Below, in pieces: positions 1,582 through 63,313 of a stretch of 64,000 nucleotides of DNA; the first letter of the stretch is position 1, and every line of letters begins with the position of its first letter. Made by a program: the position numbers and the translations under genes. This DNA comes from Woeseiaceae bacterium (GTDB taxonomy: Bacteria; Pseudomonadota; Gammaproteobacteria; Steroidobacterales; Woeseiaceae). Under the pieces are notes generated by a model. It was not told where the DNA came from. It ran no database searches and saw only the letters and a program-made list of their open reading frames with translations. The stretch lies in contig JANQMR010000001.1 in assembly GCA_028279985.1 (NCBI GenBank), positions 62,001 to 126,000 of the forward strand. The letters are read 5' to 3'.

Positions 1582-4014
1582 ATGTCGGTACGACAGCCCA
1601 ACAAGACGACCAGAATCTCCGTGGTGGGAGGCGGCCCCGGCGGGCTGTATTTCGCGTTACTGACCAAAAAGCGCCGGCCGGACATAGAGATCGACGTGTT
1701 CGAACAAAACCGCCCGGACGATACCTTCGGTTTCGGGGTCGTTTTTTCGGACGAGACGCTGGACGAGTTCCTGAGCGCCGATCCGGAGTCCTACGAGTTG
1801 ATCCGCGAGAGCTTCGCCTACTGGACCGACATCGTCATCGAACGGCAGGGCAAGCGCACGATCATCGGCGGCAACGGTTTCGCCGGTTGCAGCCGCATGA
1901 CCTTGTTGATGCTGCTGCAGCAGCGATGCCGGGACGCAGGCGTCAGGCTGCACTTCGAAACGCGCATCGACGCCGATGAGCTCGAGGAACGGCTCGGAGA
2001 CGCCGACATCATCGTCGACGCCGGGGGCGTCAACAGCCCGATACGGGAGAAGTACCGCGATGGGTTCGGTGCGACGATTACCGAGGAGCGAAACAAGTTC
2101 GCATGGTTGGGATCCGCGACGCCTCTGGATGCCTTCACGTTCTTCTTCCGCGAAACCGAGCACGGACTGATCTGTGCGCACACCTATCAGTACGAGAAAG
2201 GGCACTCCACCTGGGTGATCGAAACCACGCCGGAATGCTGGGAGGCCACCGGTTTCGGCGAAATGGACGAGGCGGGGAGCGCCGAGGCTTTGAGCAGGAT
2301 ATTCGAAGCCGAGCTCAAGGGTCACGAGCTGATTACGAATCGCTCGTTCTGGCGCAACTTCCCGACGATCCGCTGCGAACGCTGGCATCATCGCAACATC
2401 GTTCTGCTGGGCGACTGCAAGGCCACCGCGCACTGGTCGATCGGGTCGGGCACGAAACTCGCGATGGAGTGTGCCATGGCGCTGTCGGATGCCGTCATCG
2501 AGCACGACGGCAATACCGACGCGGTTTTTCGGCAGTATGAAAACGAGCGGCGCACGCCGGTCGAGATCATCCAGCACAACGCGCAGGTGTCCCTGCGCTG
2601 GTTCGAGAACATGCCGATGCATGCGAGCAAGAGCGGCACGGCGTTTGCGTTTTCGTGCATGTCCAGGTCGAAGTCCGTCGACTGGGACAACCTGAAGCTT
2701 CGCGATCCGGCATTCCTCGAACGGGCGGAGGACGATTTCTACGAACGCTACGAGTGCGAAACCGGCCGGGACTTGAGCGGCGAACGTCCCACGCCGATGT
2801 TCACGCCGTTTACCTTGCGGGGCATGACCGTGCCCAACCGTGTCGTCGTGGCGCCGATGGCGCAATACGCGGCGGTAGACGGCAACCCGCAGCACTGGCA
2901 TTTCGCCCACCTCGGCGCCCGCGCGATGGGCGGCGCGGGGCTGGTGTTCACGGAAATGACCTGCACGGCGCCAGATGCCCGGATTACCGACGCTTGTACC
3001 GGCATCTGGAACGACGAACAAGGCGAGCGCTGGGCGCGGCTGGTCGATTTCGTCCACGGCAACACGCAAGCGAAGATCTGCATGCAGCTCGGCCACGCCG
3101 GGCGCAAGGGATCCACGAAGCCGCCGGACGAAGGCATGGATCTACCCAAAGACGCGGACAACTGGCCGCTTTATTCCGCCTCGCCGTTGCCGTACATCGA
3201 AGGTGTGTCGGCAGTGCCCGCCGAGCTGGACCGCGACAGGATGTCGGTTATCCGCGACGAGTTCGTGGCCGCCGCCGAGCGTGCCGCTGCCGCCGGCTTC
3301 GACATGCTGGAGCTGCACTGCGCGCACGGTTACCTGCTGGCGAGCTTCCTGTCGCCGCTGACCAATCGGCGCCGCGACGACTACGGCGGCCCGGTCGAGA
3401 ATCGCGTCCGTTATCCGCTGGAGGTCTTCGAGGCGGTCCGTGCGGTGTGGCCCGAGGACAAGCCCATGTCGGTGCGCCTGTCCTGTTCGGACTGGGCGCC
3501 GGGCGGAACCACGCTGGACGATCTCGTCGCGATCGGGGTGGCCTTCAAGCGGGCAGGTGCCGACATCCTGCACGCTTCCTCGGGCGAGACCGTGAAATGG
3601 CAAAAGCCCGTCTGGGGCCGGATGTGGCAGACGCCGTTCGCCGAACACCTGAAGCACCACGTCGGGCTGCCGACCATCGCCGTGGGCGACATCACCTTGC
3701 CGGCGCAGATCAACACGATCGTCGCTGACCGGCGCGCCGATCTCTGCGCGCTCGGCCGGCCGCACCTGAACAGCCCGCACTTCACGCGTCTCGCGGCAGG
3801 CCACTACGGCGTGGAAACCCAGCAATGGCCGATCCCTTACGAATCGGCTCGCTACCAGCTCTTCTCCAACGCCCGTAAGAACAATGAGAAGGCGCTGGAG
3901 CTGGCGCTGAAGGCGCGGCCGAACCGGCGCCACTATCAACAGGCGGAAGGACAGGCGGAAGGACAGGCGGAAGGACAGGTGCAAGGACACGCGGAAGGGC
4001 AGGCGGAAGGCTAG
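1582..4014 (+). CDS. Fused FAD monooxygenase / Old Yellow Enzyme reductase, 2-aminobenzoyl-CoA or salicylyl-CoA type
   Basis: The 810-residue protein has two domains. Residues about 1-395 are a class A flavin monooxygenase with the Rossmann motif VVGGGPGGLYFA and a later LGDCKATAHWSIGSG FAD-contact segment. Residues about 406-775 are an Old Yellow Enzyme barrel (MFTPFTLRGMTVPNRVVVAPM, LGHAGRKGSTKPP, LTNRRRDDYGGPVENR). This fusion is known for 2-aminobenzoyl-CoA monooxygenase/reductase of Azoarcus evansii and for salicylyl-CoA 5-hydroxylase relatives, which hydroxylate and then reduce the aromatic CoA thioester. I chose ATG 1582, preceded by AGAGGAG; the frame extends upstream but overlaps ridA. 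The last 24 residues are six copies of a QAEG-like unit coded by a 12-bp tandem repeat. The substrate could be 2-aminobenzoyl-CoA or salicylyl-CoA; the RidA neighbour favours the amino compound. Confidence 0.88.
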   Translation: MSVRQPNKTTRISVVGGGPGGLYFALLTKKRRPDIEIDVFEQNRPDDTFGFGVVFSDETLDEFLSADPESYELIRESFAYWTDIVIERQGKRTIIGGNGFAGCSRMTLLMLLQQRCRDAGVRLHFETRIDADELEERLGDADIIVDAGGVNSPIREKYRDGFGATITEERNKFAWLGSATPLDAFTFFFRETEHGLICAHTYQYEKGHSTWVIETTPECWEATGFGEMDEAGSAEALSRIFEAELKGHELITNRSFWRNFPTIRCERWHHRNIVLLGDCKATAHWSIGSGTKLAMECAMALSDAVIEHDGNTDAVFRQYENERRTPVEIIQHNAQVSLRWFENMPMHASKSGTAFAFSCMSRSKSVDWDNLKLRDPAFLERAEDDFYERYECETGRDLSGERPTPMFTPFTLRGMTVPNRVVVAPMAQYAAVDGNPQHWHFAHLGARAMGGAGLVFTEMTCTAPDARITDACTGIWNDEQGERWARLVDFVHGNTQAKICMQLGHAGRKGSTKPPDEGMDLPKDADNWPLYSASPLPYIEGVSAVPAELDRDRMSVIRDEFVAAAERAAAAGFDMLELHCAHGYLLASFLSPLTNRRRDDYGGPVENRVRYPLEVFEAVRAVWPEDKPMSVRLSCSDWAPGGTTLDDLVAIGVAFKRAGADILHASSGETVKWQKPVWGRMWQTPFAEHLKHHVGLPTIAVGDITLPAQINTIVADRRADLCALGRPHLNSPHFTRLAAGHYGVETQQWPIPYESARYQLFSNARKNNEKALELALKARPNRRHYQQAEGQAEGQAEGQVQGHAEGQAEG
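3940..4011 (+). repeat. 6 x 12-bp tandem repeat at the 3' end of the monooxygenase gene
   Basis: Six consecutive 12-bp units begin at 3940, 3952, 3964, 3976, 3988 and 4000. The first three are identical (CAGGCGGAAGGA) and the last three have one to three changes. They code for QAEG-QAEG-QAEG-QVQG-HAEG-QAEG, directly followed by the stop codon TAG, whose last base starts the next gene's GTG. Confidence 0.97.
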
Positions 4015-5480
4015 TGTGGAAACCCGCGGCGAGGATCAAGTACAGCGCAGCCGGCGGCCGTTGGCCCAGCGCCGAAGAGGCCCGGCAATCCTTGTTGTTT
4101 TCACCGTTCGAGCGGGGCCGGCTTAGCCTGGCGCAGCGTACCTGGGTACCCGCCATGGTGCCGTGGCGGGCGACCGAGGACGGTGAGGTCACGGCCGACG
4201 TACTCGACTGGTACCGGCGATTCGCGGAAGGCAAACCCGGCGCGATCGTGGTGGAGGCGACCGGTATTCGAGACATCCCGTCCGGCCCGCTGCTGCGTAT
4301 CGGCCACGATCGCTATCTGCCCGGCCTCGAGAAGCTGACCGAAACCGTCCGCGAGGCCAGCGGCGGCGAAACCCGGCTGTTCATCCAGCTCATCGATTTC
4401 CTGACGATACGGCGGCGTCCGGAGAAGACGAAGTTCCTGCAGCGGTTTCTGGCGATCACCGAAGAGATTCGCGATGCCATCGGCGCGTCCGGGTGGCCCG
4501 AGGAGAAGGTACGTAATCGCCTTTGCGAGCTGGATGAGGACAGTCTCGAAAAGGTCTTGAGCCCGCGCGATTTCGAGAGCTTCTCCCGGGGCTACCGGCA
4601 GCGGGTAACCGACGTGGAGCTGGACGAAATACGCGATCTGCCGAAGACTTTGCCCCGCCTGTTCGCCGCCGCCGCCCTGCGGGCCGAGGCCGCCGGCTTC
4701 GACGGTGTCGAACTGCACTATGCACATGCGTATACGATGGCCTCGTTCCTGTCGGCGCTGAATACGCGCAACGACGGCTACGGCGGCGCGCCGGAAAACC
4801 GGGTTCGCCTGCCCGTCGAAGTTTTGGCCGCGGTCCGGGAAAACGTCGCCGACGATTTCGTATGCGGTTGCCGAATGCTGACCGAAGATTGCATCGAGGG
4901 CGGCTCCAGCCTTGCGGATACGAGCTATTTTGCGCAACGGTTCGCGGGGGCCGGCATGGATTTCATTTCGCTGTCGCGCGGCGGAAAGTTCGAGGACGCG
5001 AAAGCGCCGCGGGTAGGGCAGGCCGTCTATCCCTATACCGGCCGGAGCGGTTACGAGTGCATGCCTGCCTATATCTCCGACGAGGCCGGACCGTTCGGGC
5101 GCAACGTCGAGCCGGGTGCCGCGATCCACGCCGCCGTCAGGCAGGCCGGCTTCGACACGCCGATCGTCATCGCCGGCGGCATTCATTCCTTCGAGCAGGC
5201 GGAAGACATCCTAGCCTCGGAGAGGGCAGACGTCGTTGCGCTGGCGCGGCAGTCGCTGGCCGACCCCGATTGGTTCACGAAAGTGAAAAGCGGTCGCGGC
5301 ACGGAAGTCCGTCTCTGCGAGTACACCAACTATTGCGAGGGTCTCGATACCAAGCACAAGATGGTCACCTGCCAGCTCTGGGACCGCGTCGATACCGACA
5401 AACCCGGCGTCAGTCTGACACCGGACGGCAAACGGCGCACGACGGCCCCTCGCTGGAGACCGGACGATATCGGCAATTGA
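4014..5480 (+). CDS. Old Yellow Enzyme-family NADH:flavin oxidoreductase
   Basis: The 488-residue protein is a TIM-barrel flavin oxidoreductase: LSLAQRTWVPAMVPWRA near the start, HYAHAYTMASFLSALNTRNDGYGGAPENR in the middle, IVIAGGIHSFEQAEDIL and ADVVALARQSLADPDW near the phosphate-binding end. Between the third and fourth barrel strands there is an extra stretch of about 70 charged residues (roughly 130-200) that is not typical of short OYEs. The GTG start at 4014 overlaps the preceding stop codon by one base, so the two are translationally coupled. It may reduce an enone/dienone-CoA formed downstream of the fused enzyme (inference). The iron-sulfur extension of 2,4-dienoyl-CoA reductases is absent. 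Confidence 0.85.
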   Translation: MWKPAARIKYSAAGGRWPSAEEARQSLLFSPFERGRLSLAQRTWVPAMVPWRATEDGEVTADVLDWYRRFAEGKPGAIVVEATGIRDIPSGPLLRIGHDRYLPGLEKLTETVREASGGETRLFIQLIDFLTIRRRPEKTKFLQRFLAITEEIRDAIGASGWPEEKVRNRLCELDEDSLEKVLSPRDFESFSRGYRQRVTDVELDEIRDLPKTLPRLFAAAALRAEAAGFDGVELHYAHAYTMASFLSALNTRNDGYGGAPENRVRLPVEVLAAVRENVADDFVCGCRMLTEDCIEGGSSLADTSYFAQRFAGAGMDFISLSRGGKFEDAKAPRVGQAVYPYTGRSGYECMPAYISDEAGPFGRNVEPGAAIHAAVRQAGFDTPIVIAGGIHSFEQAEDILASERADVVALARQSLADPDWFTKVKSGRGTEVRLCEYTNYCEGLDTKHKMVTCQLWDRVDTDKPGVSLTPDGKRRTTAPRWRPDDIGN

Positions 5481-5495
5481 CGTCGGCAAATTGTA
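5470..5495 (+). repeat. 2 x 13-bp imperfect tandem duplication over the stop codon
   Basis: TCGGCAATTGACG (5470-5482) is followed directly by TCGGCAAATTGTA (5483-5495). The first copy contains the stop codon TGA at 5478-5480. It is short and imperfect and would not be remarkable alone; it is listed because the same arrangement recurs across the window. Confidence 0.5.
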
Positions 5496-5558
5496 AGGGG
5501 TGATTGAAGTAAAGCCGTAGTCGTCGTTCCGCAGGTTTGCCGTCGGCCGGCGGCCGGT

Positions 5559-6542
5559 TCAACGGCCCCGATCGCCGCCGCGCTTCGCCAGTCGCGAAAG
5601 AATCTTTTGTCCGGCACCCGGACGCGACCAAGGGCAAATGACGATGCAGACGGCACAGCCCAAGGCCTCGCCGAAGTAGGGAATACACTTGTCGAAATCG
5701 ACGTACCATTTCTGGACGCCGCGAACGAGCTGCTTGTCGTTGGAGATCGCCTCCGGCGGACAGGCATTGGTGCAGGCCTGGCAGCGCATGCAGTAATCGT
5801 CGACACCGAATTCGTCCGGCGTGTCGCCGAGCAGGGGCATGTCGGTCGTGACCGCCGACAGCCGGAAGCGTGAACCCAGCTCGCGATTGATCAGCGAACC
5901 GTGCTTGCCGAGCTCTCCGAGGCCTGCTGCTACGGCTGCCGGGAGCATGTTGACTGCGGATGCGTAGGGGCCCTGCCAGGCTTTCGCGAAATAGCCCTGT
6001 TCGAGGATATGGTTCGCGAGCTTGCGGCACGTGCGGGCCGCCCGGTTGTACTCCTTGGCCACCACGACGGCCGCCGTCGGGTTTTCCAAACTGGGCGGCG
6101 CCTCGGCGAGCTCGTCGTACTCCATCGCCACGCCCAGCAGGATGATCCAGGGCTCCTCGACCTCGTAGCCTTCGTAAACGAACATCGGGTCCATGCGCGC
6201 GATGCCGACGATATCGGCTTCGTTGTCGAGGGCGAAACGTTTTACCTCGGCCGTCCACGCCTCTGCGCTGTTCTCCCTGACCGCAGGCGCCTGCTCCGCC
6301 GGGGCGGGACCGCGGCCGCCGGGCGGCGTCGGCGAGAAATGCCGGCTGATTTCCGGCGACTTGTGCTGATAGTCCGTAACCAGCTTCTGCAGCTTGCCGT
6401 GCGTCTGGATTTTCGGCGGGTGCCAGAAGAATGGCGAAGCCCGGCGGACGCTTTTTTCGCCGAGACCGTTGATCGTGTTGCCCGACACTTCCGGCATCGC
6501 GTCGACGAACACTTGCATCGGCTTATGCGACGGCTTCGGCAT
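5559..6542 (-). CDS. Reductive-dehalogenase/QueG-like protein with two 4Fe-4S clusters
   Basis: The 327-residue protein carries the two ferredoxin motifs of the QueG/RdhA group near its C terminus: C251-xx-C254-xx-C257-xxx-C261P and C286-x9-C296-xx-C299-xxx-C303P. Upstream is a QueG/RdhA-like domain with the AGLGELGKHG segment, the place of the conserved loop near the corrinoid in that superfamily. There is no Tat signal and no membrane anchor, so it should be cytoplasmic, unlike classical respiratory dehalogenases. It is also shorter than the self-sufficient RdhA enzymes fused to a ferredoxin reductase. I start at 6542 because a strong Shine-Dalgarno precedes it; the longer frame to 6596 would overlap iorB more. 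It overlaps iorB by 20 bp, so it is probably fed by the same ferredoxin pool. The substrate is unknown. Confidence 0.75.
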   Translation of the reverse strand: MPKPSHKPMQVFVDAMPEVSGNTINGLGEKSVRRASPFFWHPPKIQTHGKLQKLVTDYQHKSPEISRHFSPTPPGGRGPAPAEQAPAVRENSAEAWTAEVKRFALDNEADIVGIARMDPMFVYEGYEVEEPWIILLGVAMEYDELAEAPPSLENPTAAVVVAKEYNRAARTCRKLANHILEQGYFAKAWQGPYASAVNMLPAAVAAGLGELGKHGSLINRELGSRFRLSAVTTDMPLLGDTPDEFGVDDYCMRCQACTNACPPEAISNDKQLVRGVQKWYVDFDKCIPYFGEALGCAVCIVICPWSRPGAGQKILSRLAKRGGDRGR

Positions 6543-8055
6543 CCGCAGATCCTTCCTCCTTCCCCGTGAGGCGGCTGAGCGCCGCCCTGAGCGCAACGCC
6601 GTTTTCGTCGGCGAGCGCCGCGTCGTGCAGGTCGCGGGTTGCTTCGGCCGGGTTGTCCTGCCGCCTGAGCACGTCGAGGACCGCCGTAATTGCCGAGAAA
6701 TTGGCCAAGCCGCGGGCGTGGGTATCGCCGTAGCCCTTGATGAGCCGTTGCAGCGCGGCGATCTCGGTCGCGAATGCCTGATCGTAGCCTGCCGCCTCGC
6801 GAACCAGGTCGAGCCAGTTCTCGATCCGCGCGGTTTCCTGCTGGTACTTGTAGCTGGACCGGCGCAGGAATCGGAGCGACGCGATAATGTACAGCGGCAC
6901 GAAACCGCGCAGCTTGGTGGTGGGCAGGCGCCGCCCCTTGCCGAAGAATACTCCCAGTACTTTACGCGTCGTGCTCGAATCGAGTATCCACCTGGCGACG
7001 CGCGGGGGCAGCATGTCGCAGAGCTCCTCGATGCGCGGGTGCATGTACTCCGAGACGTGGACGATCTGATCGGGAGCGGCCAGCACGTCCCGGCGAAAAC
7101 GGCGGAATCTGGTCGAGCGCGTCTTCAGGTCCGCCACTCGAATCACGTCGTCGTAGGCCATCCATAACGCGAGGTGCTTCGCCACCGTGGTCGTCAGCCG
7201 GTAATCGGTGCCGCCCCGGTCCAGGGCCAGCACCGATTGCAGGCGATCCAGATAAAGCGAGCCGTAGCGCGGGTCCTGGTGATCGACGACCCGCTTGAGT
7301 CCTTCGAACGCCATTGCATGGGTCGCTTCCGGGAACTGACCGTGCAAGCGTTCGATAAGCGGCCGGACGGCCGGCGCGGGGCCTGCCGCTTGCTGTTCCT
7401 CCGTCGGCTGCGAAACCTCGGTTCGACCGTACCGTACCGCCTCGAAGCCTGCGGCGAAACCGGCCAGGTTGCTCTCTACGGCGCGTCCCTGGTCGCGGAT
7501 CACGGCCTCGAATTCGTCCCGCGCCATCGGCAGGGCATCCGAGCCGGCCAGCGCACCGAACAGCACCGAACTGATGATACTGTTCGTCGCATCGGCGCAA
7601 GCTTCCATATCGGCGATCAGAAATTTCCCGGCCGCTTTTTCGGCCGCAGCGTGAATGCTCCCGGAGCTGATGCGAGCATCGCCCATGCCGATTTTTTCGC
7701 CAATGGCATAAACGCGGTGCGACGACGCGATCAGCGTGGTTTTGGCCGTCACGAAGCCCCGGTCGATGGCGCGACCGGCTTCCATGATCTCCGACGCCAG
7801 CACGATATCGACGTCGCCCGGCACCGGCATCAGCGCCAGCACCGGGGCCTGTTGCCGTTCTTCGGCGAGGCGCTTCGGATACAGCTCGACGTAATAGACC
7901 GTGGCACCGGTCCGTTGCGCCACGCCCGGCACCGAGGTCGACTGCGCAATGAAACCCGCGCGCTCGCCGAGCTTCACGATCCAGCCCGAGAGAACGCCGC
8001 CGCCCTGGCCCCCGAGCGCCTGAATCGCGATCTTGAACGAGCGCTCCTGACTCAC
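6523..8055 (-). CDS. iorB: Indolepyruvate-type 2-oxoacid:ferredoxin oxidoreductase, beta subunit with C-terminal extension
   Basis: The first about 190 of 510 residues form the 2-oxoacid:acceptor oxidoreductase gamma-type domain, with IQALGGQGGGVLSGWIV at the start and TSVPGVAQRTGATVYYVEL after it. The remaining about 300 residues, rich in helices and with no iron-sulfur motif, correspond to the C-terminal extension (DUF6537 type) of the long bacterial IorB family; archaeal IorB proteins of about 200 residues lack it. With IorA it should oxidatively decarboxylate an aryl pyruvate to the aryl-acetyl-CoA and reduce ferredoxin. The gene lies 6 bp downstream of iorA and overlaps the Rdh-like gene. 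Indolepyruvate is the family name, not a proven substrate here. Confidence 0.9.
   Translation of the reverse strand: MSQERSFKIAIQALGGQGGGVLSGWIVKLGERAGFIAQSTSVPGVAQRTGATVYYVELYPKRLAEERQQAPVLALMPVPGDVDIVLASEIMEAGRAIDRGFVTAKTTLIASSHRVYAIGEKIGMGDARISSGSIHAAAEKAAGKFLIADMEACADATNSIISSVLFGALAGSDALPMARDEFEAVIRDQGRAVESNLAGFAAGFEAVRYGRTEVSQPTEEQQAAGPAPAVRPLIERLHGQFPEATHAMAFEGLKRVVDHQDPRYGSLYLDRLQSVLALDRGGTDYRLTTTVAKHLALWMAYDDVIRVADLKTRSTRFRRFRRDVLAAPDQIVHVSEYMHPRIEELCDMLPPRVARWILDSSTTRKVLGVFFGKGRRLPTTKLRGFVPLYIIASLRFLRRSSYKYQQETARIENWLDLVREAAGYDQAFATEIAALQRLIKGYGDTHARGLANFSAITAVLDVLRRQDNPAEATRDLHDAALADENGVALRAALSRLTGKEEGSADAEAVA
6551..6561 (-). promoter_or_regulatory. Ribosome binding site deciding the start of the Rdh-like gene
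   Basis: On the minus strand, AAGGAGGAAGG ends 8 bases before ATG 6542. It lies inside the iorB coding sequence and supports this internal start over the in-frame ATG at 6596. Confidence 0.7.
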
Positions 8056-8061
8056 GGGCGG

Positions 8062-10206
8062 TTATTCGAACGCGTAGCGGGCGCGCCGGCGGTTACGAAG
8101 TCGTTGCAAAAAGCCTATGACCGCGCCGCGGATTCGCGTGGAGGCCTTGTCCCACCGGTTCGGGTTGTAAACCAGGTCCGCGCGGTAGAACGACGGGCAC
8201 AACACGGCCGCGTGGGCGTTGCCGCCGCAGACGCCGCAGCCGACGCATTCGTTGTTCACGTGCGCCACCGGATCGTCGCGCAATGGATCCGGGTTGTCCT
8301 TGAGCGTCAGCGACGGGCAGCCGGAGAGCCGGATGCAGGCATGATCGCCGGTGCAGGTGTCCTCGTCGACACCGAAGCGTTCCCGGACCACGCGCACGCC
8401 GTCTTTTATCGCTTTCCGGCGGAGCGGCTTTTCGCGCCGCTGCCGGTTCAGCATGCACTCCGATTGCGCGACGATGACTTTCGGCCCCTTTTTCTTGGTC
8501 TTCATCGCATCGGTCATGACCTTTTTCATGCGGCCGATGTCGTAGGTGTTGACTTCCTCGACCCAGTCGACGCCCAGGCCCTTGACGGCCCTGGCGATGC
8601 GGTTGTTCGTGCTCTTGGTCTTGTTGGCGGCGCGCGAGGACAAGAGGTGCTGGCCGCCCGTCGCCGCCGAGTAGCCGTTGTCGATGATGACCAGCACGTT
8701 GTCGTTTTTGTTGAACACGGCATTGCCGACGCCGCTGGTCAGGCCGTTGTGCCAGAATCCGCCGTCGCCCATGATGCTGACGGTGCGCTGGTCGGATTCG
8801 GCCTGCAGCGCCGACGCCCCCGCCCAGCCCAGGCCGTAACCCATCGTCGTGTTGCCGATATCGAACGGCGGCAGGATCGAAAACAGGTGACAGCCGATGT
8901 CGCAGCTCACGTGAAACTTGCCGATGTCTTTTTGTACCAGCTTCATGGCCGAGAACACCGGCCGTTCCGGACAACCGGTGCAAAAACCGGCCGGCCTGGC
9001 CGGCACGGTTGCCGCGACGGCTTTGGTATCGGTGTCGTTCAGGCGGCTCGCGCCGTTCGCCGGCTTGCGTTCCAGGCCCGGTGCGAACTCGTCGAGGAAC
9101 GCGGCTACGCCCTTTTGCAGTACCTGGCCGGTGTACTCCCCGGCTTTGGGGAACACGCCTTTGCCGACGACCCTGGCATCGACGCCGGCGTTCTTGAGGA
9201 TCGAGTTGACTGCCTGCTCCAGGTATTCCGGCTGGCCCTCCTCGATCATCAGGACCGCCGACTTCCGCCGGCAGAAGTCGACGACCTCCGACTCGATCAA
9301 CGGGTAGGCGACGTTGAGGCAATAGATCGGCAACTCGGTATTGCCGAAGCTGTCGGCGAGCCCTAGCAGTTCGAGTGCCCGCACCATGGCGTTGTAGAGC
9401 CCGCCCTGGACGATGATGCCGATGTCGCCATGCTCGCCGCCCATGAACTCGTTCAGTTTTTGCTCCTGAATGAAACGGATGGCGGCGGGCCAGCGGTCCT
9501 CGATCTTTTCCACTTCGTGCACGAAGTTGGACGGGGGCAGCACGACGCGGCTGTAGTCGCGCTGCGGGTTTTCCATCGCGTCCCGTAGCGTGAACGCCGG
9601 TGTTACGTTGTCTTTCGCGACGAAGGAGCCGTAAACGTGGCAGGCGCGGATTCTGAGCTCCAGCATCACCGGCGTGTTCGAAGCTTCCGACAGCTCGAAG
9701 CCGCGCTCCACCATCTCGGTAATGGACTCGAGGTTCGGCCGCGGATCCAGCAGCCACATTTGCGACTTCATCGCAAACGCGTGGGTGCGCTCCTGCATGA
9801 TCGACGAGCCTTCGCCGTAGTCCTCGCCGACGATCACGAGGCAGCCGCCGATCACGCCGCTCGAAGTTACGCTTGCCAGCGCATCGGATGCCACGTTGGT
9901 CCCGACCGTCGATTTCCAGGTGACCGCGCCGCGCAGCGGATAGTTGACCGAGGCGGCCAGCATGGCTGCTGCTGCTGCTTCGCTGGCGCTGGCTTCGAAG
10001 TGCACTTTCAGCTCACCGAGAATCTCCTCGGCGTCCGCGAGCACGTCCATCAGGTGCGATATAGGCGCGCCCTGGTAGCCGCCGACGTAGGAGACGCCGG
10101 ATTGCAGCAGGGCTTTGGTAACGGCCAGTATGCCTTCGCCGTGGAATACCTCGCCCGCGCCGATTTTCAGATCCTTGACTTCTTTTGCAAATGAACGTTC
10201 TGCCAT
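8062..10206 (-). CDS. iorA: Indolepyruvate-type 2-oxoacid:ferredoxin oxidoreductase, alpha subunit
   Basis: The 714-residue protein has the expected order: an N-terminal pyrimidine-binding domain (VGGYQGAPISHLMDVL, HFEASASEAAAAAMLAASVNYPL), a central transketolase-C-like domain, a TPP-binding domain (CTGCPERPVFSAM, IMGDGGFWHNGL, VLVIIDNGYSAATGG) and a C-terminal ferredoxin region with C-x5-C-x4-CP and NECVGCGVCGGNAHAAVLCP. TPP, Mg and 4Fe-4S clusters are therefore all predicted. Together with IorB it makes aryl-acetyl-CoA from aryl pyruvate, typically from tryptophan, phenylalanine or tyrosine. Nearby genes include an aromatic-CoA monooxygenase and a kynurenine formamidase-like cyclase, so aromatic amino acid breakdown is plausible (inference). 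A 12-bp tandem array lies just upstream. Confidence 0.93.
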   Translation of the reverse strand: MAERSFAKEVKDLKIGAGEVFHGEGILAVTKALLQSGVSYVGGYQGAPISHLMDVLADAEEILGELKVHFEASASEAAAAAMLAASVNYPLRGAVTWKSTVGTNVASDALASVTSSGVIGGCLVIVGEDYGEGSSIMQERTHAFAMKSQMWLLDPRPNLESITEMVERGFELSEASNTPVMLELRIRACHVYGSFVAKDNVTPAFTLRDAMENPQRDYSRVVLPPSNFVHEVEKIEDRWPAAIRFIQEQKLNEFMGGEHGDIGIIVQGGLYNAMVRALELLGLADSFGNTELPIYCLNVAYPLIESEVVDFCRRKSAVLMIEEGQPEYLEQAVNSILKNAGVDARVVGKGVFPKAGEYTGQVLQKGVAAFLDEFAPGLERKPANGASRLNDTDTKAVAATVPARPAGFCTGCPERPVFSAMKLVQKDIGKFHVSCDIGCHLFSILPPFDIGNTTMGYGLGWAGASALQAESDQRTVSIMGDGGFWHNGLTSGVGNAVFNKNDNVLVIIDNGYSAATGGQHLLSSRAANKTKSTNNRIARAVKGLGVDWVEEVNTYDIGRMKKVMTDAMKTKKKGPKVIVAQSECMLNRQRREKPLRRKAIKDGVRVVRERFGVDEDTCTGDHACIRLSGCPSLTLKDNPDPLRDDPVAHVNNECVGCGVCGGNAHAAVLCPSFYRADLVYNPNRWDKASTRIRGAVIGFLQRLRNRRRARYAFE

Positions 10207-10245
10207 GACAACCCTGCAATCGCTACGTCAGTGGACGGCAACGAT

Positions 10246-10317
10246 CGTGAATATCCTCGTGAATGCTCCCGAGAAAGTTCCAGGAAAAGTTCCAGGAAAA
10301 ATTCCCGGAAAAGCTCT
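10246..10317. repeat. 6 x 12-bp degenerate tandem array in the iorA / MaoC divergent intergenic region
   Basis: Six 12-bp units start at 10246, 10258, 10270, 10282, 10294 and 10306. The two most similar are AGGAAAAGTTCC and AGGAAAAATTCC; the flanking ones diverge progressively (CGTGAATATCCT at the edge). The array lies 40 bp upstream of the iorA start and 79 bp upstream of the MaoC gene start. Two-fold symmetry of TTCC/GGAA within units means it could also be read as a series of short palindromes, so a regulator-binding array is possible. Confidence 0.85.
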
Positions 10318-10395
10318 CGTCGTTGAGTCCCGTGAAACGGTGTTATCATCCGGCCCAAGCATCATCAGCCCCCCAGCTTCGGGCGACCCACCGCA

Positions 10396-10860
10396 ATGAA
10401 AATTGACGCGCGGCGAAAGCCGCTTCTCGCGTTCGAGGACTTCGAGCCCGGACAAGTCTTCGAACTGCCCGACTACGCCGTGTCGGAGGTCGACATTCTC
10501 CGCTTCGCGAGGGAATTCGACCCGCAGCCGATTCATACCGACCCCGCGCACGCCGCCGGGACCGAGATGGGCGGCCTGATCGCCAGCGGTTGGCACACCG
10601 CCGCGATTTTCATGCGTATGCAATGCGACAGCTTCCTGCTCGACACGAGTTCCATCGTCTCACCGGGCGTCGACGAGATTCGCTGGCTGCGGCCGCTTCG
10701 TCCCGGCGACGTCCTCGGCGGCTCGGTCGAAGTAACGAAGGTGGCCGCGTCCAGGTCGAAGCCCGATCGCGGGACCGTCTATTGCAAAGCCGCCGTCGTC
10801 AATCAGCACGGCGAGGTCATCATGACGGTCACGACGCGCAACATCTACAGGCGCCGTTAG
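10396..10860 (+). CDS. MaoC-family (R)-specific enoyl-CoA hydratase-like protein
   Basis: The 154-residue protein is a single hot-dog domain: FEDFEPGQVFELPDYAVSEVDILRFAREFDPQPIHTDPAHA matches the MaoC hydratase signature, where Asp and His of the D-P-x-x-x-H stretch (DPQPIH) are the catalytic pair. GLIASGWHTAAIFMRM is the following substrate-tunnel helix. It should hydrate a trans-2-enoyl-CoA or act on a related CoA ester. It is transcribed divergently from iorA and convergent with the cyclase gene, so it is not in either operon. The role is probably in the same aromatic or acyl-CoA catabolism. Confidence 0.88.
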   Translation: MKIDARRKPLLAFEDFEPGQVFELPDYAVSEVDILRFAREFDPQPIHTDPAHAAGTEMGGLIASGWHTAAIFMRMQCDSFLLDTSSIVSPGVDEIRWLRPLRPGDVLGGSVEVTKVAASRSKPDRGTVYCKAAVVNQHGEVIMTVTTRNIYRRR

Positions 10861-10898
10861 GGCTTCAACAGGGATCACTTGCATCGTGCCGGCAGGTC

Positions 10899-11687
10899 TC
10901 AGTCTCCGGCCACCAGCGCTATGACGCGCAGCGGACTGCCGGAACCCTCTTCGATCTTCAGCGGCGAGGCGACGACGACCGCGCCGAAAGTCGGCAGCTT
11001 GTCGAGGTTCCTGAGACACTGCAGGCCGTATCGGCCGTTCCCGTGCAGGATATTGTGCGCGGGATACGGCGGGTCGAATACGTGACCTTGCCCGGCGTCG
11101 GTGCCGATCGTTTCGACGCCCAGTCCCCTGCAGTCGCGTTCGTGCACGAGGAACTCGATGGCGCTGGGGTCGGGGCCCGGCGTGTGCGCACCGTCCTCGC
11201 GCATGTTGGTATATGCGTCCGTGCCGACTTTTTCGGCCCAGCCGGTATGAAACAATGCCCAGGACTGCGGCGGTATCTGCCCGTGTTGCGCTTCCCAGTC
11301 GCGGATATGTTCCGCCGTCAGTACGAAGTCCGGATCGGCTGCGCATTCGGCGGTGAAGTCCATGACCACCGCAGGGCCGATGAAGTCACTGGCCGGCAGC
11401 TTGTCGACGGTACCGTTCGGCAGCTCCTTGCCCGTAACCCAGTGCACCGGCGCATCGAAATGCGTGCCGGTATGTTCGTTCATGCTGATGTTATTCCAGT
11501 ACCACATCGGTCCCTTGTCGTCGTACGTCGAAATCGTCTCCCGTTTGAAAGGAGCGCACTGGGCGAATTCCTCGGGCAAGGTCAGCACCGGGAAGTCCGG
11601 CGACAGGACGTTGGTGAGGTCGATCACTTCGATAGCGCTGCTGGCGATCTGACTGACGAGGTTTTCCAGAGTGGCTGCACTGCTCAT
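10899..11687 (-). CDS. Cyclase-family protein (kynurenine formamidase-like metal hydrolase)
   Basis: The 262-residue protein has the cyclase-family metal-binding signature NEHTGTHFDAPVHW (pattern H-x-G-T-H-x-D-x-P-x-H), preceded by the typical DLTNVLSPDFPV. Family members include KynB kynurenine formamidase and enzymes opening lactone or formamide rings; the metal is usually Zn or Mn. KynB proteins are about 210 residues, so this longer member may have another substrate. Context with iorA/iorB and a 2-aminobenzoyl-CoA-type monooxygenase makes a link to tryptophan/kynurenine/anthranilate breakdown attractive but unproven. The SD, AAGGA 7 bases upstream of the ATG, lies within a tandem repeat. 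Confidence 0.85.
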   Translation of the reverse strand: MSSAATLENLVSQIASSAIEVIDLTNVLSPDFPVLTLPEEFAQCAPFKRETISTYDDKGPMWYWNNISMNEHTGTHFDAPVHWVTGKELPNGTVDKLPASDFIGPAVVMDFTAECAADPDFVLTAEHIRDWEAQHGQIPPQSWALFHTGWAEKVGTDAYTNMREDGAHTPGPDPSAIEFLVHERDCRGLGVETIGTDAGQGHVFDPPYPAHNILHGNGRYGLQCLRNLDKLPTFGAVVVASPLKIEEGSGSPLRVIALVAGD

Positions 11688-11688
11688 T

Positions 11689-11732
11689 GCTCGGTCCTTA
11701 TGCTGCTCGATCCTTATGCTTGATCTTTATGG
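11689..11732 (-). repeat. 16-bp tandem duplication containing the Shine-Dalgarno of the cyclase gene
   Basis: Read on the plus strand, GCTCGGTCCTTATGCT (11689-11704) is followed by GCTCGATCCTTATGCT (11705-11720) and a partial third copy (TGATCTTTATGG, to 11732). On the minus strand each full unit contains ATAAGGA, which in the first unit is the Shine-Dalgarno for the ATG at 11687. Directly beyond it is a second small duplication, GGGTTTTTCG twice from 11731. Confidence 0.85.
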
Positions 11733-11839
11733 GTTTTTCGGGGTTTTTCTGGACGGGTCCGCCTTCGACGAAGGATAGTAGCATTGTCTCTTGGCGCGGG
11801 CTCGCACAATGCGTTGCGCAAAACGGCATCGAGAGTGTG

Positions 11840-48706: not shown

Positions 48707-48733
48707 GATGTTTATCGGCAATATGGTAACGGC

Positions 48734-53591: not shown

Positions 53592-55241
53592 ATGAATACC
53601 ACCAGAATCTTGCTGTTGAGCTGTTTCGTGAGCTGTCTTGGCGTGCTGGGCGCCTGTTCGAAGACGGCGGACCCGGCGCCCGAAGCCGATTTTGCCCCCC
53701 AGGCCGACGCGGCCGACGGTTCCGTGGACGATACGGCGACGAAACTGAAGCCGGCCGAAGGTATCGACTGGTTCGAAGGCAGCGTGGCGGAGGCGTTTGC
53801 CGCGGCGAAGACGCAGGGTAAGCCGCTGTACCTGTACTGGGGCGCCGTCTGGTGTCCGCCCTGCCACGCGATTCGGGAAACGGTGTTCAGCACACCGGAG
53901 TTCCGCGAGCGTTCGAAGCTGTTCATACCGGTTTACCTGGACGGCGACACCGACAACGCGCAACGTTACGGCGAGCGTTTCGGGGTGATGGGCTATCCGA
54001 CGATGATCGTTTTCGACGCCGACGGCCACGAGATCACGCGTATCCCGAACGGTATCGACATGCTGGCGTATGCCAACGTGCTGGATTTGACCCTGGGCAG
54101 CGCGACATCGGCCAGTGCGCTGGTCGAGACGGTAATGGCCGATCCTATGGCCGATCCTATGGCCGATCGAATCACGCTGGGCAGCGGCGATTGTGCGATG
54201 CTCGCCTACCACGCGTGGGGGCAGGACACGAGCATACTCGAAGGTGTCGACCGGCCCCGGGCGATGCGACGGATCTACGAGGCCTGTCCCGAAGCACTGG
54301 GCAAGGAACGGACGCTTCTTTACATGGCCTGGCTCGACGCCTTGCTCCAGGCGGCGGAAACGCCTGCGGACGTCGGACTGGATGCGGAACGCCGGCGGGA
54401 AGCCGTCGATCTCCTCACGTCCGTGCTGGCGGATCCCGAACGCTCGAAGACGGTGCTGGTGAGCCTGATTTATTCCGGCGCCGACATCACGGCCGCGCTG
54501 ACCGAACCAGGGAGCCCGGAGCGTGCATCGCTTACGTCCGCGTTCCTCGAGGCTTACGAGCGTTTCGCGGCGGACGAAACCGTCTACAAGCGCGAGCGGA
54601 TTTATACCCTGCGCGGACGCCTCGCATTCGAACGCATCGAAGACCCGGAATCGCCGCCATCAACGGAAATCAGACAAGCCATCGTCGACATGGTCGAATG
54701 GGCCGATGCGTCCACCCCGGGGGTCCACCAGCGGCAGCCGATCGTCAACGCGCTGGGTAACCTGCTCGACGACGCCGGCATGGACGAGCTCGCCAAACCG
54801 CTGTTACTGGCCGAGCTCGAAAAGTCCAGGCAGCCGTACTATTACATGCCCGATCTCGCCGGCATCGAGCAGCGTGCGGGTAACATCGACCTAGCAATCG
54901 AATGGTTGCGCAAGGGTTACGAGACTGCCAAGGGGCCGGCGACCCGATTCCAGTGGGGCCATTATTACCTGAGCGGCCTGCTCGACATGGCCCCGGATGA
55001 CAGCGTGCTGATTCACGATACCACCGTGCGGATGATCGAGGAGCTGCAAAAAAGCGGTGGACTGTATCACCGGCCCAAACGTCAGCTCGAGCAGCTCGAA
55101 TCCGAGTTGATTGCCTGGGGCAGGGCGACTGGCGGCGACGCCGAGCTGTTCCGAATCCGCGAATCGGTGATGCGCGTTTGTGCTCTTGACGCGAGCGCCA
55201 ATTCCCGCGCGGCCTGCGAGGCGTTTCTGGAATCCGCCTGA
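53592..55241 (+). CDS. Thioredoxin-like lipoprotein with helical C-terminal region
   Basis: The 549-residue protein begins with a lipoprotein signal ending LGAC22. Residues about 58-160 are a thioredoxin fold with W-C88-P-P-C91-H, cis-Pro in GVMGYPTMIVF. From about 180 to the end it is helical and TPR-like (AGMDELAKPLLLAELEKSRQPYYYMPDLAGIEQRAGNIDLAIEWLRKGYE). An internal 12-bp triplication (ADPMADPMADR) links the two. The open frame extends upstream to 52488 but is antisense to the decarboxylase. A periplasmic disulfide-handling role with a peptide-binding arm is likely. The next lipoprotein gene follows with no gap. Confidence 0.82.
   Translation: MNTTRILLLSCFVSCLGVLGACSKTADPAPEADFAPQADAADGSVDDTATKLKPAEGIDWFEGSVAEAFAAAKTQGKPLYLYWGAVWCPPCHAIRETVFSTPEFRERSKLFIPVYLDGDTDNAQRYGERFGVMGYPTMIVFDADGHEITRIPNGIDMLAYANVLDLTLGSATSASALVETVMADPMADPMADRITLGSGDCAMLAYHAWGQDTSILEGVDRPRAMRRIYEACPEALGKERTLLYMAWLDALLQAAETPADVGLDAERRREAVDLLTSVLADPERSKTVLVSLIYSGADITAALTEPGSPERASLTSAFLEAYERFAADETVYKRERIYTLRGRLAFERIEDPESPPSTEIRQAIVDMVEWADASTPGVHQRQPIVNALGNLLDDAGMDELAKPLLLAELEKSRQPYYYMPDLAGIEQRAGNIDLAIEWLRKGYETAKGPATRFQWGHYYLSGLLDMAPDDSVLIHDTTVRMIEELQKSGGLYHRPKRQLEQLESELIAWGRATGGDAELFRIRESVMRVCALDASANSRAACEAFLESA
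54135..54170 (+). repeat. 3 x 12-bp tandem repeat between domains
   Basis: ATGGCCGATCCT occurs at 54135 and 54147, and ATGGCCGATCGA at 54159. It codes for MADP-MADP-MADR at the border of the thioredoxin domain and the helical region. Confidence 0.95.
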
Positions 55242-57519: not shown

Positions 57520-58926
57520 ATGAACGACACTTCGATCGACTACCGACGCCCACCCGGTCCCGTCCGGCCCGTCGCCCTCGGCGTGGACCCCGAGACCCTG
57601 GCGGCGCTCGAGGCCTTGCGCGAGCGTTTCGGCAACATCGTCAGCGTCGAAAAGCCGAGTGGGCGGATCGCCTATTTCGTCAATGAACCGGAGGAGGTCA
57701 GGCGCATCCTGGTGCGGCGGCACGGCAAGTACAAGAAGGGGCCGGGATTCGAGCGCGTGAAGATGCTGCTCGGGAACGGCATCATCGTCAGCGACGGCGA
57801 CGTCTGGCGGCGCGCGCGGACGATGATACAGCCGGCCTTCAAGGTGCAAAACGTCCACCGCCTGATACCGGCGATGGTCGCCTGCTGCGACAAGCGCGCC
57901 GCGGCCTGGGCGGCGGTGGCCGACGCCGGCGGTACGCTCGACATCACGGCCGAGACCAGCGCGTTCGCACTGGAGCTGATACTCGTCAGTATCTTCGGCG
58001 ACGACTACGAAAGCCGGATCGCATCCCTGCCGGAGAATCCGTTTTCGTTTCTCGCCAGCGATTCGGTGCGTGACCTCGGCGTGGTCATGAAAGCGCGGGC
58101 GCTGCGCCGTTTCCTGAGTGAGATCATCGCGGCGCGCCGCGCGTCGGATATCGACCGGAGATTCGATTTCCTGGCGATGTATCTGTCGGCCACCGACAGG
58201 CAGGGTGCGGGTTTCACCGACGAAGAGTTGCTGGACGAGTTGATCACGCTGATCGTCGCCGGTTTCGAAACCTCGGCGAATACCTTGAACTGGGCCTGGT
58301 ATCTCCTCGCAGGGCATCCCGGGGTCGAAGCGCGGTTGATAGAGGAAGCGGAGCGCCTGCTGCCGAACGCCGGCGCCGTGAACGCGGACAGCATTTCGGC
58401 CATGGTATACACCCAGCAGGTCATCGAGGAAACCCTGAGGCTGTATCCGCCGGTGTGGCTTTTCACCCGCAGGGCGCTGGCCGATGACGCACTCGACGAT
58501 TACGACGTGCCTCGCGACGCCGACATTTACCTGTCTCCGTACCTGTTGCACCGTACCGAGGCGTTCTGGGAGGACCCGGATCGATTCGACCCGGACCGTT
58601 TCGAAAGCAGTCCCGGACGGTCGCAGCGCGAGCGGCCGTATTTCCCGTTTTCCCTCGGGCCCAGGCGTTGTCTCGGCGAGTACTTTTCGTTTCTGGAGAT
58701 GAAGATCCATCTGGGATTGTTGTTGCCGCGCTTCCGGATGCTGCGGCTCGACGACGAGGACCCGGGGCTCGAGCTGGGGATCAACCTGAGGTCCAAACGC
58801 AATATCCGGCTCAGACCCGAGCGGCGCGTTCGGCAACGACACGCCCGGCCCAAGAGTATCCGGTCCAAGAACGTCCGATCCAAGAACGTCCGATCCAAAA
58901 ACCTCCGATCCAAGAACGTCCGATAA
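57520..58926 (+). CDS. Cytochrome P450 with repetitive C terminus
   Basis: The 468-residue protein has the P450 marks: I-helix AGFETSANTLNWAW (247-260), ExxR in E304-T-L-R307, and heme-binding FPFSLGPRRC384LGE. It is closest in layout to bacterial CYP4/CYP102-like fatty acid or terpenoid hydroxylases. ATG 57520 gives a normal N terminus; the frame is open upstream. The last about 26 residues are five copies of a five-residue unit (RPKSI-RSKNV-RSKNV-RSKNL-RSKNV-R). The stop TAA overlaps the next ATG. Redox partners are not in the window. Confidence 0.92.
   Translation: MNDTSIDYRRPPGPVRPVALGVDPETLAALEALRERFGNIVSVEKPSGRIAYFVNEPEEVRRILVRRHGKYKKGPGFERVKMLLGNGIIVSDGDVWRRARTMIQPAFKVQNVHRLIPAMVACCDKRAAAWAAVADAGGTLDITAETSAFALELILVSIFGDDYESRIASLPENPFSFLASDSVRDLGVVMKARALRRFLSEIIAARRASDIDRRFDFLAMYLSATDRQGAGFTDEELLDELITLIVAGFETSANTLNWAWYLLAGHPGVEARLIEEAERLLPNAGAVNADSISAMVYTQQVIEETLRLYPPVWLFTRRALADDALDDYDVPRDADIYLSPYLLHRTEAFWEDPDRFDPDRFESSPGRSQRERPYFPFSLGPRRCLGEYFSFLEMKIHLGLLLPRFRMLRLDDEDPGLELGINLRSKRNIRLRPERRVRQRHARPKSIRSKNVRSKNVRSKNLRSKNVR
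58846..58920 (+). repeat. 5 x 15-bp tandem repeat at the 3' end of the P450 gene
   Basis: Units at 58846, 58861, 58876, 58891 and 58906: CGATCCAAGAACGTC is the consensus, with one to four changes in the others. The array ends two codons before the gene end, where CGATAATGA holds both the stop and the next start. Confidence 0.97.
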
Positions 58927-60904: not shown

Positions 60905-60926
60905 ATGACCGACTCATGACTGACTC
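60905..60926 (+). repeat. 2 x 11-bp duplication over the KAS III start codon
   Basis: ATGACCGACTC (60905-60915) and ATGACTGACTC (60916-60926) are adjacent and differ by one base. Only the second ATG is in frame with the KAS III gene; 11 bp puts the first out of frame. Confidence 0.9.
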
Positions 60927-61896
60927 AGGGGCACCTCACTCGAGGATTACCGGTACCGGCGCCTGTCTGCCGGCACGCGTCGTGACCAACCACGATCTCG
61001 CGCAGATCATGGATACGTCCGACGAGTGGATTCGCGAACGCACCGGTATCAAGCGCCGGCACCTGGTCGAGGGCGAGACCGCGGGCGACCTGGGGCTGGT
61101 TGCCGCGAAAAACGCGATTGAAATGGCCGGCATAGCGCCGGATGCGATCGACCTGATCGTCGTCGCCACGACGACCCCGGACAAGGTGTTTCCCGGAACC
61201 GCCTGCATCATCCAGCGGCGGCTGGGTATCGGCGGCTGTGCCGCGTTCGACGTGCAGGCGGCGTGCAGCGGATTCGTCTACGGCCTGGACATTGCCGACC
61301 GGCAGATACGTACCGGCGGTGCGCGCGTCGCGTTGATCATCGGCGCGGAGACGCTGTCGAAAATCGTCAATTGGGAAGACCGCGGTACCGCGGTGTTGTT
61401 CGGCGACGGTGCCGGCGCGGTGGTTCTCGAGGCATCGGAGCAGGAAGGCGTGATATCCACTCACATACATGCCGACGGTCGTTACGCGGACTTGCTCGAA
61501 GTGCCGCAAGGTATCTCGAGCGGCTACGATGCGGTTCGCGCGGAGCGGGCTTTCATCACGATGCAGGGGAATGCGGTGTTCAAACGCGCGGTCGCCACGC
61601 TGGACTCGATGGCGCGTGAAACCTTGGACGCCAACGGCATCGATCGTCACGACATCGATTGGCTGGTGCCGCATCAGGCCAATCTCAGGATCATCGCGGC
61701 GGCGGCCAGAAAACTGGATTTGCCGATGGAGCGGGTGATCGTCACCGTCGACGAGCACGCCAATACCAGCGGGGCTTCGATTCCGCTGGCGCTGGACGCC
61801 GCGGTGCGTGACGGGCGCATCGGCGCCGGCGATCTGTTGCTGTTCGAGGCCTTCGGCGCCGGTTTTACCTGGGGGTCGGCGCTGGTCCGCTTCTAA
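60916..61896 (+). CDS. fabH: Beta-ketoacyl-ACP synthase III family protein
   Basis: The 326-residue protein has the KAS III triad C117 (DVQAACSGFVYGL), H253 (WLVPHQANLRII) and N283 (DEHANTSGASIPLAL), and the FabH start RITGTGACLPARVVTNHDLAQIMDTSDEWIRERTGIKRRH. It joins an acyl group to malonyl-ACP. Fatty acid synthesis genes (plsX, fabD, acpP) are not beside it; it follows a fatty acyl-AMP ligase-ACP, so it may be a pathway-specific paralog rather than housekeeping FabH. Confidence 0.92.
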   Translation: MTDSGAPHSRITGTGACLPARVVTNHDLAQIMDTSDEWIRERTGIKRRHLVEGETAGDLGLVAAKNAIEMAGIAPDAIDLIVVATTTPDKVFPGTACIIQRRLGIGGCAAFDVQAACSGFVYGLDIADRQIRTGGARVALIIGAETLSKIVNWEDRGTAVLFGDGAGAVVLEASEQEGVISTHIHADGRYADLLEVPQGISSGYDAVRAERAFITMQGNAVFKRAVATLDSMARETLDANGIDRHDIDWLVPHQANLRIIAAAARKLDLPMERVIVTVDEHANTSGASIPLALDAAVRDGRIGAGDLLLFEAFGAGFTWGSALVRF

Positions 61897-62044: not shown

Positions 62045-62269
62045 ATGAGCAAGGAATTCAAGGACATCGAATTCAAGGACATCGAATTCAAAGACGAATT
62101 CGAGGACATCCCGCTGTCCGAATCCAACGTCTCGCTGAAACTCGAGGCGATTCGGCGGCGTTGCTCCGAGTTGCTGGACGAACCGGACCTCTTGAACGAG
62201 CTGTCACTCGAAGAATCGGACGACATGCCGATTCGGGTACCCGGCCGCGATCCCTACAACCACAGCTAG
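62045..62269 (+). CDS. Small acidic protein, CRP-controlled
   Basis: The 74-residue protein begins MSKEFKDIEFKDIEFKDEFEDIP, a region made of repeated E-F-K-D-I units, and is acidic and helical afterwards (LKLEAIRRRCSELLDEPDLLNELSLEE), ending MPIRVPGRDPYNHS. It has one Cys, no signal peptide and no membrane segment. GGGAAAG before the ATG may serve as ribosome site. I recognise no family. The CRP site upstream makes it likely to be a real, carbon-status-regulated gene. Confidence 0.72.
   Translation: MSKEFKDIEFKDIEFKDEFEDIPLSESNVSLKLEAIRRRCSELLDEPDLLNELSLEESDDMPIRVPGRDPYNHS
62054..62110 (+). repeat. Tandem repeat of 15 bp at the start of the small protein
   Basis: GAATTCAAGGACATC occurs at 62054 and 62069, followed by a 12-bp version (GAATTCAAAGAC at 62084) and GAATTCGAGGACATC at 62096. 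All keep the frame. Confidence 0.95.
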
Positions 62270-63273: not shown

Positions 63274-63313
63274 CAAATCGCCGAGCCAAATCGCCGAGTC
63301 AGTACCGCCGAGC
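63274..63313 (+). repeat. 3 x 13/14-bp tandem repeat upstream of the Mo-hydroxylase operon
   Basis: CAAATCGCCGAGC (63274-63286), CAAATCGCCGAGT (63287-63299) and CAGTACCGCCGAGC (63300-63313) follow in tandem, 78 bp before the small-subunit start. Nothing else coding lies in 63172-63390. Confidence 0.9.

Follow-up and report, generated by a model that had tools for sequence, protein, structure and literature searches.

Why should so many gene ends in one bacterium carry a short word repeated head to tail? The question was raised by a 64,000-nucleotide window of a Woeseiaceae genome (contig JANQMR010000001.1, positions 62,001 to 126,000; G000:C35:62001-126000 in our numbering), in which a first-pass annotation listed 16 such sites and ascribed them to a general duplication process filtered by reading frame. 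The short tandem arrays are genuine and genome-wide. They are best read as a mutational signature rather than as a set of functional elements, and need have no function.

Tandem arrays are abundant and lie mostly outside reading frames

The genome (4.10 Mb in 40 contigs, 96.6% complete) was sampled twice, first as the window plus 40 stretches from the 39 other contigs and the start of contig C35 (766 kb in total), and then as a larger sample of 1.06 Mb (26% of the genome) with 894 called genes. Arrays were collected with a strict detector (unit 8–60 bp, two copies, identity of at least 85%, overlapping arrays dropped) and compared with shuffled sequence in which synonymous codons were permuted within genes and dinucleotides were kept between genes. 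Genes came from a simple purpose-made caller, which in an E. coli check recovered 43 of 48 stops and placed 22 of 25 starts within 30 nt. The first sample contained 149 arrays compared to 24.6 per shuffle. The larger one held 97 intergenic, 23 mixed and 77 coding arrays, where the shuffles gave 1.7, 0 and 34.7, so that the noncoding and mixed arrays together numbered 120 against a shuffle expectation of ~2; 101 of these 120 had units of 11–16 bp.

The arrays had been said to concentrate at gene boundaries, and 115 of the 197 touched the zone within ±60 bp of a start or stop, compared to 38.5 under random placement (maximum 59 in 2000 trials). This part of the claim stood, although most of the concentration turned out to be an intergenic excess, with only a mild end bias inside the gaps themselves: when gaps of 120–600 bp were divided into two 60 bp flanks and a middle, the flanks carried 48 arrays in 33.8 kb, compared to 29 in 34.9 kb for the middle (P = 0.014). 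Arrays lay nearer to stops where the gap measured at most 400 bp (P = 0.04), and enrichment beside starts as such was not borne out. The mildness of the bias within gaps indicates that "gene boundary" mostly means tolerance, that is, a position outside reading frames that are unable to bear an insertion. Effects on ribosome sites or protein termini are possible at single sites, and the analysis contains no sign of selection for them. A limit to the high-G+C backbone, to which the sites had been ascribed, is not supported either: gaps beside atypical genes carried 8 arrays in 8.5 kb (0.94/kb) compared to 100 in 77.2 kb (1.30/kb) for the other gaps.

The arrays are rare in relatives

For comparison we pooled 38 relatives, one genome per species: G005, the nearest relative examined (85% identity over 2.1 kb of a conserved gene), 30 other genomes of the same genus and 7 of the same order. 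Most of them contributed one stretch or two, none longer than 20 kb; the gene caller was trained on as little as 5–20 kb for each, and a moderate rise in any single one could be missed. One stretch of 221 bp (L079) was left out of the density and exact-pair counts, and another of 2.8 kb (L167) was dropped altogether.

Noncoding arrays with 11–16 bp units occurred here at 6.8 per 10 kb (101 in 147.7 kb of intergenic DNA). The corresponding densities were 0.38 in G005 (1 in 26.4 kb), 0.23 in the 30 other genomes of the genus (2 in 87.5 kb) and 0.49 in the 7 genomes of the order (2 in 40.8 kb). With 5 arrays in the pooled 154.7 kb, the relatives fall roughly twentyfold below this genome. In-frame coding arrays of 12 or 15 bp units followed suit, at 6.0 per 100 kb here and 0, 0.38 and 1.24 in relatives. 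Three controls, counted for noncoding and mixed arrays of any unit, gave 0 in 6.6 kb for E. coli K-12, 1 (15 bp) in 5.1 kb for a Novosphingobium plasmid and 0 in 4.9 kb for a B. multivorans plasmid. The abundance is thus particular to this genome among those sampled.

Individual sites could be followed where the two genomes align. Window positions 1-11604 align with G005 at 80–82%, and at both clearly alignable sites G005 has one copy or none: where the 3939 site carries six copies of a 12 bp unit, G005 has a single QAEG followed by a stop, and it lacks ~90 bp within which the 10274 array lies. Several other array-bearing gaps, such as that at 25178, gave no clear alignment. Among 56 orthologous gaps, 55 of which entered the length test, the 12 with arrays had a median length of 147 bp in this genome, compared to 60.5 bp in G005 (P = 0.010). 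The 43 gaps without arrays were also longer here (median 31 bp compared to 9 bp, P = 0.027), and some older array growth may therefore have decayed past detection. Neither of the two noncoding arrays of G005 lies in the 12 array-bearing orthologous gaps.

The excess is limited to units of 11–16 bp and follows the reading frame

Exact pairs were counted by unit length in 145 kb of intergenic DNA of this genome and 151 kb from the 38 relatives. Short pairs were about equally common in the two samples (this genome/relatives: 5 bp, 142/137; 6 bp, 54/52; 7 bp, 25/17; 8 bp, 6/13; 9 bp, 7/7; 10 bp, 1/0). The counts then parted abruptly at 11 bp (11/0) and stayed apart through 12 bp (21/1), 13 bp (11/1), 14 bp (10/1), 15 bp (8/0) and 16 bp (3/0), before returning to 0/0 at 17–18 bp. 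In total, 64 exact pairs of 11–16 bp were found here compared to 3 in relatives. Exact pairs of 6–9 bp did exceed a dinucleotide shuffle (6 bp, 54 vs 33; 7 bp, 25 vs 8; 9 bp, 7 vs 0.4), about equally so in relatives. A few far longer units aside, the excess peculiar to this genome is limited to 11–16 bp, and shorter pairs are not raised. A lag spectrum, which uses no array threshold, gave the same picture: self-matches at lags 11–16 were ~8–30 times the shuffle level in this genome, with further peaks at 24–32, whereas the six relatives with usable spectra were near the shuffle or at most ~sixfold above it on single-digit counts. The spectrum of a further relative, G028, was disregarded on account of a run of N.

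The 16 sites had suggested that units within genes are 12 or 15 bp long, and that 11, 13, 14 and 16 bp occur as well outside them. For units of 11–16 bp this rule holds genome-wide: 55 of 56 coding arrays were in frame and 1 was out, compared to 39 in and 62 out among the 101 outside genes (P = 2e-15). Coding units of 9 bp were also present (18 in the 1.06 Mb sample). Coding arrays were further expected where proteins tolerate extra residues, and 20 of 54 arrays with 12 or 15 bp units lay within 90 nt of a gene end, where 17.5% would be expected (P = 0.0005; one of the 55 such arrays, unassigned to a gene, was left out of this test).

A second, smaller class of units measures 47–53 bp. It comprises the window array at 45427-45539, found by Tandem Repeats Finder (TRF), and six more found by the detector in other stretches of this genome (L031:6949-7081, L051:15505-15690, L135:4534-4636, L140:18872-19041, L144:1306-1423 and L037:17453-17653), the last of which is coding and by eye rich in histidine and aspartate. 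No noncoding unit between 27 and 46 bp was found in the 1.06 Mb sample.

Edges, words and growth of the arrays

Among 39 exact noncoding arrays with units of 10–17 bp, the repeat extended 0–2 bases past the unit in 29 (19, 6 and 4 arrays, respectively), close to the proportions at random positions. A search of 60 edge contexts, drawn from 30 arrays, yielded no significant motif; the strongest column among 12 gave a chi-square of 11.3 with 3 degrees of freedom. The repeated words differ among the 62 intergenic arrays listed, as had been noted within the window, and k-mers of the units are near background save for a mild excess of A+T and of CTA/CCTA-type words, the units being richer in A+T than other intergenic DNA.

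Copies within an array are graded in similarity. In 11–16 bp arrays with at least three copies, adjacent copies differed by 9.6% and non-adjacent ones by 16.9%, which indicates that growth was stepwise and spread over time. At the other extreme, 37 of the 101 noncoding 11–16 bp arrays were exact, and some arrays are therefore probably young.

A probable lineage-specific duplication process

Taken together, the data make it fairly probable, though by no means certain, that random stretches of 11–16 bp are, or until recently were, duplicated head to tail at a high rate in this lineage, the resulting arrays then growing step by step and decaying. The frame-filtered duplication proposed in the first-pass annotation survives in those parts that could be tested, namely the unrelated words, the near-absence of out-of-frame units from genes, the excess at protein ends and the scarcity in relatives. 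The first duplication would be best explained by a break with ends staggered by ~11–16 bases, both of which are filled in and rejoined; the fixed size and the lack of edge homology in most exact arrays fit such a break better than slippage. Once two identical copies exist, slippage or recombination would presumably add further copies singly, and point mutations would slowly erode them, in line with the similarity gradient. Selection clears frame-breaking duplications from genes and leaves the in-frame ones, with an excess near protein ends, so that survivors collect between genes, where most of the arrays were observed. In its most specific form, an enzyme making random-sequence double-strand cuts staggered by 11–16 bases, with ends filled and joined without Ku, would mean that the cell carries a source of duplications of defined size, still at work and continually adding short repeats to intergenic DNA and protein termini. 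We regard this form as tentative and rather doubtful.

Several observations weigh against a staggered-break origin or against its being well established. Ten of the 39 exact arrays extend 4–13 bases past the unit, where ~3 would be expected to extend by at least 3; they could be duplications that began where bases happened to match, or could carry part of a third copy, and the data fit either reading. Staggered breaks at random would further be expected to yield more units below 11 bp, which fits poorly with the sharp lower limit. Rejoining of filled-in ends normally uses Ku, and neither Ku (PF02735) nor an ATP-dependent ligase (PF01068) was matched in this 96.6% complete genome. The case for ongoing duplication is drawn from one genome per species. 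Finally, the one repair-gene candidate described below is a single coincidence in one lineage and one difference among many (a full-profile Cas1 gene is another), and none of the titles among the literature matches listed links it to such duplications.

Candidate repair and mobile-element genes

Eight protein families were searched for differences that might accompany the arrays, and one repair-gene difference unique to this genome was found. The gene for DNA polymerase IV (Pol IV), dinB, survives only as a remnant of ~37 recognisable codons with a frame break (L198:1216-1323, contig C3, minus strand), flanked by genes for a polyprenyl synthetase and an AAA ATPase. All 12 same-genus relatives searched have canonical DinB (IMS domain; E of 1.3e-53 or better), so that 1 of 13 genomes, this one, has the remnant. 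The remnant, like the arrays, is recent enough to be still legible. We consider loss of Pol IV a lead, not a demonstrated cause of the raised rate; a second Y-family polymerase is present in the genome.

Other candidates fared less well. Loss of the PolA 5' nuclease was rejected because full-length PolA with its aspartate motifs, which we take to be those of the nuclease, is present in an alignment of this genome with G005. MutS is likewise present, and G057, a relative without a MutS match, had 0 noncoding arrays in 40 kb. Gain of Ku fails on the missing match noted above, as does gain of an ATP-dependent ligase, which was found in G005 and three other genomes. A reverse-transcriptase burst has no more than one partial match to show. 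A reverse-transcriptase fragment lies at one contig end (L186).

This genome also has a locus of clustered regularly interspaced short palindromic repeats (CRISPR; contig C34, L194:1-3858), with 14 copies of a ~32 nt repeat beside a full-profile Cas1 gene. Frames resembling cas2, cas4 and cas3 were seen by eye, and one spacer-repeat unit occurs twice in a row. Such a CRISPR array with full-profile Cas1 was found in 0 of 12 relatives searched; this genome and G005 share a partial Cas1-like frame. We set the locus aside as a source of the arrays because spacer integration is not, to our knowledge, known to yield 11–16 bp duplications.

Alternative explanations

Slippage at repeats already in place is the usual explanation for short insertions in bacteria. 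On this view the arrays would come from ordinary replication slippage, or from flap misligation, made more frequent because a repair function was lost, with the nascent strand re-pairing at a short repeat 11–16 bases back. Slippage accounts for the tandem form and for later in-register growth, a candidate repair-gene loss (dinB) is at hand, and the 10 of 39 exact arrays that extend 4–13 bases are above chance. Yet edge matching is at chance level in the other 29, and a general rise in slippage should lift short units too, whereas exact pairs of 5–10 bp match those of relatives; MutS is also in place, as is PolA, which retains the motifs of its 5' nuclease. We therefore think slippage unlikely as the source of the first duplications.

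Footprints of a cut-and-paste mobile element, whose insertion makes an 11–16 bp target duplication and whose excision leaves both copies, would explain some of the same features, as target duplications are narrow in size and free of microhomology and insertions survive mainly between genes. The arrays do look blunt and of fixed size, given the 11–16 bp window and the chance-level edges in 29 of 39. The element itself is what is hard to find: self-comparison of the 766 kb sample gave paired matches only, often at the ends of contigs, with no family reaching three copies (at least 80% identity over 60 bp). A burst of DDE_Tnp_1 elements is not supported by three partial matches in the genome, one of them below cut-off, and the symmetric edge context has no significant motif. 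We judge such footprints to be quite unlikely.

A third possibility is that the arrays are selected functional elements (operators, ribosome-site spacers or terminators) that happen to be repeated. The mild excess near gene ends and toward stops would suit this, as would the slightly low number of gaps with two or more arrays (7 vs 13.2 expected), a deficit that the detector's dropping of overlapping arrays may explain. Against it, the words are unrelated and coding arrays rise as well, and G005, with the same flanking genes, lacks arrays at the alignable sites and has its own two noncoding arrays elsewhere. We find this explanation very improbable.

Assembly artefact or relaxed selection alone, suggested by the short-read style of the assembly and by the thought that a small population could tolerate more junk, is scarcely credible, given that copies show point differences and graded similarity, that the 11–16 bp arrays are at most 84 bp long and so shorter than the 99 bp overlap at contig ends, that G005 has a similar median gap (154 vs 160 bp) and is yet almost free of arrays, and that relaxed selection should let through 5–10 bp pairs, which are not raised. 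Contig ends of this genome (e.g., L015/L031 and L016/L030) have 99 bp in common, in most cases exactly, as is typical where a short-read assembly breaks at repeats.

Sites in the 64-kb window

TRF run on the window at score 30 returned 57 rows. Its rows bear out most of the 16 sites, starting within 15 bp of 13 of them and neighbouring two more, 10246 and 40795, where they begin 28 bp and 50 bp further on (10274, and an exact 12-mer pair at 40845); the site at 5470 has none. The strict detector gave 14 arrays in the window and covered 11 of the 16 sites (10246 and 40795 via neighbouring rows). It misses 5470, 12532, 60905, 63274 and the 45431 unit, and adds two arrays absent from the earlier list, at 15468 and 38860, both coding.

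Eight of the 16 sites are assigned to the plus strand, most of them within or touching genes. At 3939-4010 a coding sequence closes with six in-frame copies of 12 bp, which encode QAEG repeats before the stop (TRF, detector and G005 alignment). Units of 15 bp are found in frame at the 3' ends of a thymidine kinase gene (Pfam TK; 3 copies, 41573-41620) and a P450 gene (Pfam p450; 5 copies, 58845-58924). Another 15 bp unit lies at the 5' end of a short gene (3 copies and a broken fourth, 62054-62110). All three were found by TRF and detector, as was an exact, in-frame 12 bp unit of 2.8 copies within a gene (54135-54168). At 25170-25242, a 15 bp unit of 4.5 copies begins in the ATGA stop/start overlap of two frames and repeats the start codon (TRF, detector and by eye). 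A weak case, seen by eye only, is the imperfect doubling of a ~15 bp word at a stop codon (5455-5482). A short gap holds an 11 bp pair with one mismatch (60905-60927; TRF).

The remaining sites were not assigned a strand. A divergent gap (10246-10312) holds three copies of 12 bp (10274-10312; TRF, detector and G005 alignment), preceded by a decayed ~13–14 bp pair seen by eye. At 11688-11749 an intergenic 16 bp pair (TRF and detector) runs into 13 bp and 10 bp pairs (TRF only), and at 12465-12571, also intergenic, TRF alone found a 16 bp pair (12465-12495) and a weak array of three 14 bp copies (12531-12571; 74% matches). Three copies of 12 bp are intergenic at 48733-48768 (TRF and detector), as is a 13 bp pair overlapping a 14 bp pair at 63274-63317 (TRF). 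At 40795-40903 a ~34 bp word occurs twice ~74 bp apart, by eye and with no TRF row, with an exact 12 bp pair between (40845-40868; TRF and detector). The mostly intergenic array at 45427-45539, with a ~50 bp unit in 2.3 copies (TRF), stands outside the 11–16 bp class. Two different exact pairs, 12 bp and then 11 bp, adjoin at 19740-19786 (TRF and detector); arrays of different words also lie side by side or nearly so at L024:3435-3500 and L021:11161-11259.

Two features of the surrounding sequence may be added. An Oxidored_FMN domain occurs in each of two neighbouring genes at 1582-5480. The region 30000-40000, past tRNA genes at 29868 and 30022, is possibly acquired, having lower G+C (0.55–0.57) and poor codon scores; it contains one weak coding array only.

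Comparison with known systems

No pattern like this was found described in the literature searched, where subscription papers were thinly covered. A signature so sharply limited in size, lacking edge homology in most cases and unaccompanied by a rise in shorter repeats, would make this organism a natural mutator, and its cause is testable and could be found by comparison of near relatives. The graded series from one copy to two, to six and on to decay would illustrate how minisatellites and new protein tails are born. Should loss of Pol IV prove to be the cause, a protective role for that polymerase would follow, one not seen described among the literature matches listed.

Several known systems share part of the pattern. 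Transposon target-site duplications are likewise blunt duplications of a fixed-size word, but here no inserted element was found in the part compared, no motif was significant, and copies reach six or more. Dispersed intergenic families, such as repetitive extragenic palindromes (REP), miniature inverted-repeat transposable elements (MITE) and heptad repeats, share sequence among sites, which these arrays do not, and products of Ku/LigD end joining would call for a Ku gene, for which this genome has no match. RecA-independent rearrangement of tandem repeats, described in E. coli for deletion between 101 bp repeats (PMC8378479), offers a plausible route for changes in copy number after the first duplication, a step that the available part of that report does not address. 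Short tandem repeats with units of 1–9 bp, surveyed in 49,192 bacterial genomes (PMC12699852), are also head to tail and enriched outside genes. The units here lie wholly above that range, so that the survey would have missed these arrays; units up to 10 bp are not raised in this genome.

The closest likeness is to bacterial minisatellites, or variable-number tandem repeat (VNTR) loci, familiar for instance as markers in multiple-locus VNTR analysis (MLVA), which are tandem units of 10–60 bp with degenerate copies, often intergenic and in frame inside genes. The arrays described here share all of these traits, and by unit size (above ~9 bp) and copy number (at least two) they would fit that class, the 120 noncoding or mixed and 77 coding arrays having units of 8–60 bp, mostly above 9 bp. 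Minisatellites are usually sporadic and mixed in unit size, whereas about 100 noncoding loci in a quarter of the genome here have sharply bounded 11–16 bp units that are rare in the relatives sampled. It is in number, narrowness of unit size and rarity in relatives that the arrays of this genome differ from bacterial minisatellites as known.

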